Positions 48,212-51,567 of a stretch of DNA of 64,000 nucleotides are shown here, one piece after another. The position numbers were made by a program, and so were the translations under genes. The stretch is taken from the NCBI GenBank assembly GCA_007116035.1, contig SKJG01000066.1:1-64000 (forward strand). Reading direction: 5' to 3'. This stretch comes from Thioalkalivibrio sp. Lineage in GTDB: Bacteria; Pseudomonadota; Gammaproteobacteria; Ectothiorhodospirales; Ectothiorhodospiraceae. Position 1 is the first letter of the stretch, and every line of letters begins with the position of its first letter. The notes under the pieces are model-generated. The model saw only the letters and a list, made by a program, of their open reading frames with translations. It did not search any database and had not been told where the DNA came from.

Positions 48212-49126
48212 CTATCCCGATTGATCGATGACGCGGCGCAGCTCGGCGATGTGCGCCGGGCCCACTTCGCAACAGCCGCCTACAATCGAGGCGCCGACAT
48301 CCAGCCAGCGTCGCGCGTGTTCGGCATAGCGCGCCGGGGTCAACTCTTCGCGCCGGTCGGGCACGTTGGCACCGTCTGCAACCTCGAATCCCGCCTCGAT
48401 CGCGCTAAAACCGTTGGCATAGGCGCCAAACGCGCGGCCGGCGTGTTCGGCAAGCGCTGGCAGCGCCGCCTCGACGCTTTCAGGCATCGAACAGTTGAAC
48501 AGCAAGGCCTCGACCTCGACCCCGTCCAGCGACTCGACCGCTTCCCGCACGGTTTCGCCGCTTCGCAGCAGCCCGCTGCCGTCGTCGGCGACCGTCCACG
48601 AGACCCATACCGGCAGGCCGGTCGACGCAGCACCGCGGGCTGCTGCCAGCGCCTCCGCGGCAGTCGACATCGTCTCGCAGATGAACAAGTCGACGTATTC
48701 GGCAAGGATCACAGCCTGCTCGCGGTACAGCGGCTCGATTTCCTCCAGCGGTCGGACCCGATCCGGCCGGTAGCTGCCGTGGATCGGCGGCAGTGATCCG
48801 GCAACAAGCACTTCGCGGTCGGCTTCGTCGGCCGCCTGGCGCGCCAGCTTGCCTGCGGCCCGGTTGCAGCGCACGAAACCGTCTTCGATGTCCGCAGAAT
48901 CCAGCCGCCGGCGAGTTGCGGCATACGAGTTGGCCGTGATGACGTCGGCTCCCGCAATGATGAAATCACGGTGCACAGTGACCACCGCCTCCGGGTGGTC
49001 GACCAGCGCCCGGGCCGACCAGAGACCGTCGCTAGTCTCAAGGCCACGTGCGGCCAGTTCCTGGCCCATACCGCCGTCCAGGAGAATTGTTTGCCCGTCC
49101 TGCAAATTACGTGTCGATGCTTTCAT
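48212..49126 (-). CDS. Homocysteine S-methyltransferase family protein
   Basis: ILLDGGMGQELAARGLETSDGLWSARALVDHPEAVVTVHRDFIIAGADVITANSYAA...VGGCCEVGPAHIAEL zinc-ligand motif. Confidence 0.92.
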   Translation of the reverse strand: MKASTRNLQDGQTILLDGGMGQELAARGLETSDGLWSARALVDHPEAVVTVHRDFIIAGADVITANSYAATRRRLDSADIEDGFVRCNRAAGKLARQAADEADREVLVAGSLPPIHGSYRPDRVRPLEEIEPLYREQAVILAEYVDLFICETMSTAAEALAAARGAASTGLPVWVSWTVADDGSGLLRSGETVREAVESLDGVEVEALLFNCSMPESVEAALPALAEHAGRAFGAYANGFSAIEAGFEVADGANVPDRREELTPARYAEHARRWLDVGASIVGGCCEVGPAHIAELRRVIDQSG

Positions 49127-49526
49127 GATGTAAATCCGTTGAATTTCAAGCTCATCGTGACACACTCCCGGCGCTGCTGTCCTACTCATGCCGGTCTAAG
49201 CTCAGCGGGTATCTGCGAATCAGGTAGATCCCGCTTCCGACCGTCGAGCAGATCGACCAGCGCGGAACGCTGTTCGGTGCACACACCGCTTGGACCCGAC
49301 GTCGCGTGGATGGCGGAATGTTGTGGTGAGAATGAACCAACACCTGACACGAAAGAGACATTACGTTCTGGTCTTCAGGGTACCCGGCGCACAAAAAACG
49401 ATGAAGCCTGCCTGCATTCGATCACCAAAGAGCGCGCGAGGACTGTCCGCACTGAGCACGACAGCGGACCTTCATCCACCCGGAATGGTCTATACTCCAT
49501 CAATCCGTGGAATACGGGAATGATAC

Positions 49527-49910
49527 GTGCCTCTCTGCGAACACCCATCCGCCGGGACGCCTGACATCCCGCCGACCGAGCTTCTGGTCCATGCGGCCGA
49601 GTTTTTCCGCGCGATGGGTGATCCGGAACGTCTCCGCCTTCTTGCCATGCTTCGGGATGGCGAGCGCTGCGTGGGTGAACTGGTCGGCGAGCAGGACAAA
49701 CTCAGCACCGTTTCGGCGCGGCTACAAGCCCTGCACCGCGCCCGATTGCTGCACCGGCGTCGCGAGGCCCGGCACATCTACTACCGGCTCGCCGACGGGC
49801 ACGTGGCGAGTCTGCTGAACAATGCACTGGAACACGCGGCGGAGCGGCTTGCGCCGCCGGTACAATCCCTTCAGGAGGACGACTTCGATGAGCTGTCAGA
49901 AACACCCTGA
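49527..49910 (+). CDS. ArsR/SmtB-family metalloregulator
   Basis: GTG start; AAEFFRAMGDPERLRLLAMLRDGERCVGELV...ALHRARLLHRRREARHIYYRLADGHVASLLNNALEHAAE; contains DxHx10HxxE. Confidence 0.93.
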   Translation: MPLCEHPSAGTPDIPPTELLVHAAEFFRAMGDPERLRLLAMLRDGERCVGELVGEQDKLSTVSARLQALHRARLLHRRREARHIYYRLADGHVASLLNNALEHAAERLAPPVQSLQEDDFDELSETP

Positions 49911-50235
49911 TCACGATCATGAACATGGCCCGGGTTGCGGGCACACGGCGGTAGAGCACGACGGTCACGTCGATTACCTGCACGACGGGCACCTGCACCA
50001 CCCGCATGGCGACCACGTCGACGAGCACGTGATTCCGGTGACCGCGGCCAACCCCGGTCAATGCACGCCTGCGCATGACTGCGGCGGTCACGAAGCCGGT
50101 CACGTGCATGGGCCGGACTGCGGACACGAAGCCGTTCCGCACGGGGATCATGTCGACTACCTGGTCGACGGCCATCTGCATCATCCCCACGGGGATCACT
50201 GCGACGATCACGGACCGTTGAAGGTGATCGGCTAA
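49888..50235 (+). CDS. Histidine/cysteine-rich putative metal-binding protein (115 aa)
   Basis: MSCQKHPDHDHEHGPGCGHTAVEHDGHVDYLHDGHLHHPHGDHVDEH...; SD TCAGGAGG; overlaps the ArsR gene by 23 bp. Confidence 0.88.
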   Translation: MSCQKHPDHDHEHGPGCGHTAVEHDGHVDYLHDGHLHHPHGDHVDEHVIPVTAANPGQCTPAHDCGGHEAGHVHGPDCGHEAVPHGDHVDYLVDGHLHHPHGDHCDDHGPLKVIG

Positions 50236-50247
50236 GGGCGCCTCCAC

Positions 50248-50273
50248 ACGCCGGCGCCGATTGACGCCGGCGT
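50248..50273. other. GC-rich hairpin between convergent genes
   Basis: ACGCCGGCG-CCGATTGA-CGCCGGCGT, 9-bp stem; no T tract seen. Confidence 0.5.
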
Positions 50274-51114: not shown

Positions 51115-51567
51115 ATGGCAACCAAGACCGTCCCCGGGCGTTCCTGCCGCCGCGCTGCATCGACCTTCGACTGGGGGAACCTCATCGCCGTCTCCCTGGC
51201 TGGTATACCGCTGTTCCTGGTCAGCGGCGAAGTGGGTATCGCCACCATCATCGCCGCGATTATGGGGATCGTACCACTGATCTTCTGGTTCGGCGCCTCG
51301 ATGATGGTGTATGCGATGTGCCGCCATCATCCGGAAGACCGCGTCGGCCAGTTCACCCAGTGGGCCGCCTACCGCTACTACGGGCTCATGGGCTCGCTGA
51401 TCGTGGTGGCGACCTTCTTTCCGCCCGACCTGAATTATTACCGGGGCTACTGGGTGGTGGCCGCGGCCATCCTGATTCCCTGGACGATCGTCGCCTTGAT
51501 CCGCATCTACCGGGAGGACTGGAACGACGTCCAGATCGAGGTCGAACCCGAGGAAAACACGGAATGA
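51115..51567 (+). CDS. Hypothetical multi-TM membrane protein
   Basis: [48 protein letters not shown]...; at least three hydrophobic segments; overlaps bioB. Confidence 0.7.

Follow-up and report, generated by a model that had tools for sequence, protein, structure and literature searches.

The CzrA-CzrB and ZiaR-ZiaA systems are governed by alpha5-type zinc sensors that are derepressed by zinc. The sensor of mycobacterial SmtB-ZitA is of the same type and is likewise derepressed by zinc (PMC7174638), and in Anabaena metals release the SmtB-type repressor AzuR, whose gene sits inside the znuABC operon, from a 12-2-12 site before the metallothionein gene of the AzuR-NmtA system (PMC8790569). 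Bacterial cytoplasmic zinc buffering outside the metallothioneins is poorly known. Hpn, Hpn-like, PA4063 and other metal proteins with a very high histidine content have been proposed to store or buffer metals. Also, a text search for His-rich wording in a report on the Zur regulon with COG0523 chaperones (PMC2770081) turned up histidine stretches only within COG0523/G3E GTPases and related chaperones, and no separate His-rich gene.

We have analysed a 64,000-nt stretch of Thioalkalivibrio DNA, referred to below as the window, in which an arsR gene overlaps a gene for a His-rich protein (Table 1). We favour, with a probability of about 0.6, the reading that this pair is a self-contained, autoregulated zinc sensor-buffer operon, in which a zinc-derepressed SmtB-type sensor drives production of a cytoplasmic zinc buffer. 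By analogy, the unit would most likely follow the logic of SmtB-SmtA of Synechococcus with a different buffer protein: it resembles SmtB-SmtA and AzuR-NmtA in having an alpha5 ArsR/SmtB repressor, a 12-2-12 operator that overlaps the promoter, and a small target that would sequester metal. It differs from both in that the target is a His-rich protein with a predicted beta fold rather than a Cys-rich metallothionein, that the sensor lies in the same operon or ORF as its target, and that the operator core is TCCA...TGGA rather than TGAA...TTCA. The preliminary description of this DNA had proposed a sensor with a metal buffer or chaperone, and not an efflux operon. To judge from the sequence, that proposal appears to hold in part, with the alpha5 site, the operator, gene fusions, zinc-gene neighbourhoods and the lack of an adjacent exporter in its favour. 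It took no account of the operator, of the breadth of the family and its fusions, of relatives that lack arsR and lie among zinc-limitation genes, or of a predicted fold in place of a flexible His tail.

Table 1. Features of the arsR/His-rich unit (window positions)
Feature	Position	Strand	Remarks
Operator TATACTCCATCAATCCGTGGAATACG	49491..49516	+	26-bp imperfect palindrome, 12-2-12 geometry
Putative -10 hexamer TATACT	49491..49496	+	coincides with left arm of operator; read from the sequence
arsR, SmtB-type ArsR regulator	49527..49910	+	GTG start, 127 aa; NF033788 above cut-off, best PDB match SmtB
N-terminal C4-E5-H6, half of alpha3N-like site	49536..49544	+	from alignment of coupled ArsRs
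Cys48 (E-R-C-V), other half of alpha3N-like site	49668..49670	+	aligns with Cys of SmtB ELCV
Alpha5 metal site DGHVASLLNNALEHAAE	49794..49844	+	D90, H92, H103, E106; residues 90-106 of ArsR
Shine-Dalgarno AGGAGG of His-rich gene, within arsR	49873..49878	+	9-nt spacing to ATG
His-rich protein gene	49888..50235	+	ATG, 115 aa, 27 His (23%), 6 Cys
His-rich repeat 1 (HGPGCGH...HVDYLHDGHLHHPHGDHVDEH)	49924..50028	+	four predicted strands, residues 20-47
His-rich repeat 2 (HGPDCGH...HVDYLVDGHLHHPHGDHCDDH)	50107..50211	+	predicted strands, residues 81-110
9-bp hairpin	50248..50273	+	GC-rich, 13 nt past His-rich stop, no T-run; fold z = -2.0

The sensor and the overlapping His-rich gene

The ArsR protein matches the NCBIfam model NF033788 (HTH_metalloreg) at 70.1 bits (cut-off 55) and PF01022 at 26.2 bits (cut-off 22), as a winged-helix protein of the ArsR family should, and its best match in the PDB is SmtB itself (1r1t, E 3.8e-18). 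Its GTG start is supported by the orthologues at three other loci of the same genus (L091-L093), which have an ATG at the same distance of 10 nt from the operator. The exact DxHx10HxxE motif noted earlier is present as D90-x-H92-x10-H103-x2-E106. We compared it with the 45 ArsRs whose genes directly precede that of a His-rich relative, or that are fused to such a relative, and observed in the alignment that the D/H/H residues are invariant in all 45, which rules out a chance origin of the motif, and that the Glu is kept in 44; the DxHx10Hxx(E/H) ligands of the alpha5 group are thus conserved among orthologues. Like SmtB, the window ArsR has an alpha3N-like site in addition to the alpha5 site. 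The C-x-H element and Cys48 that make up the former are both present in 29/43 coupled ArsRs and both absent from 11, with Cys48 alone in 3 (Fisher 6e-8, a statistic that ignores phylogeny). The recognition helix of the coupled ArsRs reads S-A/Q-R-L (SARL/SQRL), whereas that of SmtB reads S-H-Q-L.

We could confirm that the downstream gene begins 23 bp inside arsR and is preceded by a strong Shine-Dalgarno sequence, and a recount of its product gave the same length, His and Cys figures as before. The overlap is 23-35 nt in L091-L093, in the arsR frame, and a purine-rich GGAGG or AGAGG element is retained there before the His-rich gene; this arrangement suggests that the two genes are translationally coupled. 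The His-rich protein has no visible hydrophobic signal segment. An alignment of 66 His-rich sequences contains 31 invariant columns, including 17 His and 3 Cys, and AlphaFold2 applied to these sequences returned an all-beta model of two repeats of four short strands each (pLDDT 85.1, pTM 0.79). With so confident a predicted fold, the protein is probably no mere disordered stretch of His residues, and it differs in this respect, and in its invariant CGH/DYL/GHLHH framework, from the Hpn/PA4063 group, with which it shares a very high His content. No Pfam or NCBIfam model matched the protein, no sequence relation to a solved chain was found in the PDB, and a Foldseek comparison of the predicted fold with the PDB gave nothing significant. 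Nor does it resemble an SmtA-type metallothionein, which is Cys-rich with metal-thiolate clusters: there are 6 Cys beside the 27 His, and no Pfam or NCBIfam match. The hairpin beyond the stop codon was not scored as a terminator; it is possible that it marks the end of the transcript or stabilises its 3' side.

Operator, promoter and surroundings of the pair

When palindromes upstream of the coupled arsRs were enumerated, TCCA-N8-TGGA ranked first; the family consensus is aACATTCCAT-N6-ATGGAATGTt (in weight-matrix form, aACATTCCAT.gATc.ATGGAATGTt), and in nearly all coupled loci only a few bases separate the site from the start codon of arsR. The geometry is the palindromic 12-2-12 type that alpha5 sensors use at their own promoters, equal to that of the SmtB and AzuR repeats, with a different core. 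A symmetric 26-bp weight matrix, tested by five-fold cross-validation, recovered 40/45 coupled loci at p<=0.005 and 43/45 at p<=0.05; several of the lowest-scoring loci have a palindrome in that register whose half-site differs, for example ACACTTGCA. Sites of 19 bits or more within the 735 kb of locus DNA that we scanned all sit upstream of such an arsR, and none was found at arsR-less loci. The operator was clearly the best site in a scan of the 64-kb window, at 19.0 bits (9.6 for the next independent site). Scores of 19-21 bits also arose 5 times in 800 kb of control DNA, and a score of 19 bits is therefore no proof by itself. A pattern built on the window site had one exact match in the host genome and two matches with 2 mismatches, one of them within a porin-like ORF. 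The site is therefore present at nearly all coupled arsRs, absent where arsR is absent, and convincing at one place in the genome, from which the unit looks self-contained and autoregulated; no convincing second target appeared in the window, the host genome or the 735 kb of locus DNA, and we therefore discarded the regulation of other genes through this operator. The putative -10 hexamer has counterparts at the same position in L091-L093 (TATATT, TATATT and TACAAT); a promoter scan found no -35 match and no full sigma-70 site at the arsR promoter.

The pair is flanked by a divergent homocysteine S-methyltransferase gene and a convergent comF/gntX-like gene, and no metal exporter adjoins it, as had been described; we therefore rejected an efflux operon. 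CzrA-CzrB, ZiaR-ZiaA and SmtB-ZitA all control exporters, whereas here there is none adjacent and no other convincing operator target in the genome. The host genome (186 contigs, 99.7% complete) encodes three P-type heavy-metal ATPases away from the pair, and no CDF (PF01545) exporter was found in it; all 14 control genomes have one. The divergent methyltransferase gene was also rejected as an operator target, being ~300 bp away and not paired with arsR in L091-L093. Its product (48212-49189, - strand; PF02574) has the GGCC motif typical of zinc-dependent members, and the neighbourhood in L093 has instead what reads as metE, also zinc-dependent, together with a LysR regulator; the occurrence of zinc-dependent methyltransferase-type neighbours at both loci is possibly a coincidence. 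An island of foreign composition is unsupported (GC 0.65, compared with 0.66 for the window). Further along, at 51115-51567 (+ strand), a 150-aa probable membrane protein without a family match above cut-off is encoded upstream of bioB.

We propose that apo-ArsR, bound to the palindrome over the -10 region, would repress its own two-gene mRNA. As free cytoplasmic Zn(II) rises, it would fill the inter-subunit alpha5 site (D90, H92, H103', E106'), and the zinc-loaded ArsR would leave the DNA, allowing expression of arsR and of the overlapping, translationally coupled His-rich gene. The latter would supply a small cytoplasmic beta protein, with two HGPxCGH...GHLHHPHGDH repeats, that binds several zinc ions and lowers free zinc, so that ArsR would re-bind in a closed feedback loop. 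Derepression at metal excess is what alpha5 sensors generally, and AzuR particularly, lead us to expect, and buffering is the role that we infer for the His-rich protein. Two observations count against a zinc sensor-buffer, namely the operator core, TCCA in place of the TGAA of SmtB, and the many relatives without arsR. If the proposal is correct, a zinc reporter could be built from the operator by ordinary means.

Spread of the family, fusions and zinc-gene neighbourhoods

One genome scan yielded at least 575 relatives of the His-rich protein, and our locus analyses rest on the best 80 of these, which biases them towards close relatives. The 80 come from Proteobacteria, Planctomycetes, Verrucomicrobia, Myxococcota, Acidobacteria, Actinobacteria and Hydrogenedentota. 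The spread is patchy, the gene being present in 9/274 genomes of the class and in only 5/29 other genomes of the same genus (three with arsR, two without). Four same-genus copies have only arsR and the His-rich gene in common among the window genes tested, and none of the other neighbours tested was found beside the copies in the five genomes; the arsR/His-rich pair therefore moves as a unit. In the protein tree, ArsR-coupled relatives are intermingled with those in other contexts. Few of its branches have good support, but those that do require the ArsR label to have changed at least 6 times.

Six relatives are one-ORF ArsR::His-rich fusions (L015, L039, L048, L051, L062 and L079), which come from Alphaproteobacteria, Burkholderiales and Planctomycetes and, in one case, from an unclassified MAG. 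The planctomycete fusions L051 and L079 are sisters, and the other four lie apart on the tree. On the reading that we prefer, gene overlap and fusion would fix the ratio of sensor to buffer, and a fusion would be a one-protein sensor-buffer. The same fusions, the ratio fixed by the overlap and the near-exclusive operator are also what one would expect if the His-rich protein were a co-regulator that delivers metal to ArsR or strips it, with buffering secondary. We consider this very improbable: an arsR gene is near and upstream in 41/80 of the best relatives, and about half of the relatives thus have no arsR nearby, so that the His-rich protein works without ArsR.

Zinc-homeostasis genes were found near 25/80 relatives and 1/80 control windows (p 1e-7). 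The association is strong, and the ratio is indicative because the loci under study also supplied the neighbour seeds and because the control windows came from gammaproteobacterial relatives only. The genes counted were those for COG0523 GTPases, Zur-like Fur, ZnuA/B, DUF1826, a WD40 partner and HisI/PyrC/ThrS paralogues, with identities checked against Pfam and NCBIfam. A gene for a ZnuD-like receptor adjoins L061, and annotated znuABC/zigA genes lie alongside the P. sprentiae copy. In two planctomycete loci (L056 and L058), the ArsR/His-rich pair lies amid several COG0523 GTPases, a WD40 protein and DUF1826.

These neighbours bear on the metal. The preliminary description spoke of a Zn/Co/Ni-type sensor; we would narrow the metal to zinc, because the terminal Glu of the alpha5 site is SmtB-like and because Zur, Znu, COG0523 and ZnuD-like genes recur nearby. 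The same architecture could in principle serve nickel or cobalt, as an NmtR-like sensor with an Hpn-like buffer, given that DxHx10H is common to Ni/Co sensors and that His-rich proteins often bind nickel; the His-rich sequence could itself bind Ni, Co or Cu instead. We regard a nickel or cobalt unit as improbable, since the terminal alpha5 residue is Glu as in SmtB and not His as in CzrA and NmtR, and since the neighbours are zinc genes, with no nickel-enzyme gene among the recurrent ones.

They bear also on the direction of the response. Fourteen arsR-less relatives lie with zinc-limitation genes, a setting that would point to production of the protein in zinc shortage and not in excess. Many relatives lie in clusters like those of the Zur regulon with its COG0523 chaperones (PMC2770081), whereas the window copy lies beside ArsR and away from any such cluster. 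Near zinc-uptake genes, the His-rich protein might catch the surge of zinc that enters a starved cell. The zinc-limitation neighbourhoods fit such capture after the onset of uptake, and they fit equally the main alternative, that the protein is a metallochaperone or scavenger that hands zinc to COG0523 GTPases or enzymes in zinc limitation, with ArsR only tuning its amount. COG0523 genes near 12/80 relatives, together with DUF1826, ZnuABC, the HisI/PyrC/ThrS paralogues and the ZnuD-like receptor, point in that direction, and so does the presence of Zur-box-like sites upstream of a few copies that lack arsR (with 1 mismatch in L038). Yet significant sites of this kind occur at only 3/41 arsR-less loci, which rules them out as a general rule for such copies, and at 4/45 ArsR loci, the window locus not among them; moreover, no zinc-limitation gene adjoins the window pair, and it is normally an excess of metal that causes alpha5 sensors to derepress. 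We therefore think the chaperone role unlikely, though less so than the other alternatives, and retain the zinc sensor-buffer as the preferred reading.

As a broader and tentative proposal, which we hold somewhat short of an even chance, the relatives may form a family of "histidine metallothioneins" that extends across phyla and has a fold of its own, the same zinc buffer being placed under SmtB-type control (excess) or Zur-type control (shortage) and sometimes fused to its sensor. What gives the family its interest is that it is widespread, yet neither Pfam nor NCBIfam has a model for it, and that it combines a defined sensor and operator, natural fusions and two regulatory contexts that look opposite. 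We found no description of the arsR/His-rich unit in the open-licence PMC literature, in which the phrase "zinc transporter permease", an automatic name for such proteins, was likewise unmatched. Plasmid records contain 7 matches, called "hypothetical protein" where annotated. Within the genus, the His-rich copies of L094 and L095/L002, which have no arsR, lie beside a ubiG-like methyltransferase gene.
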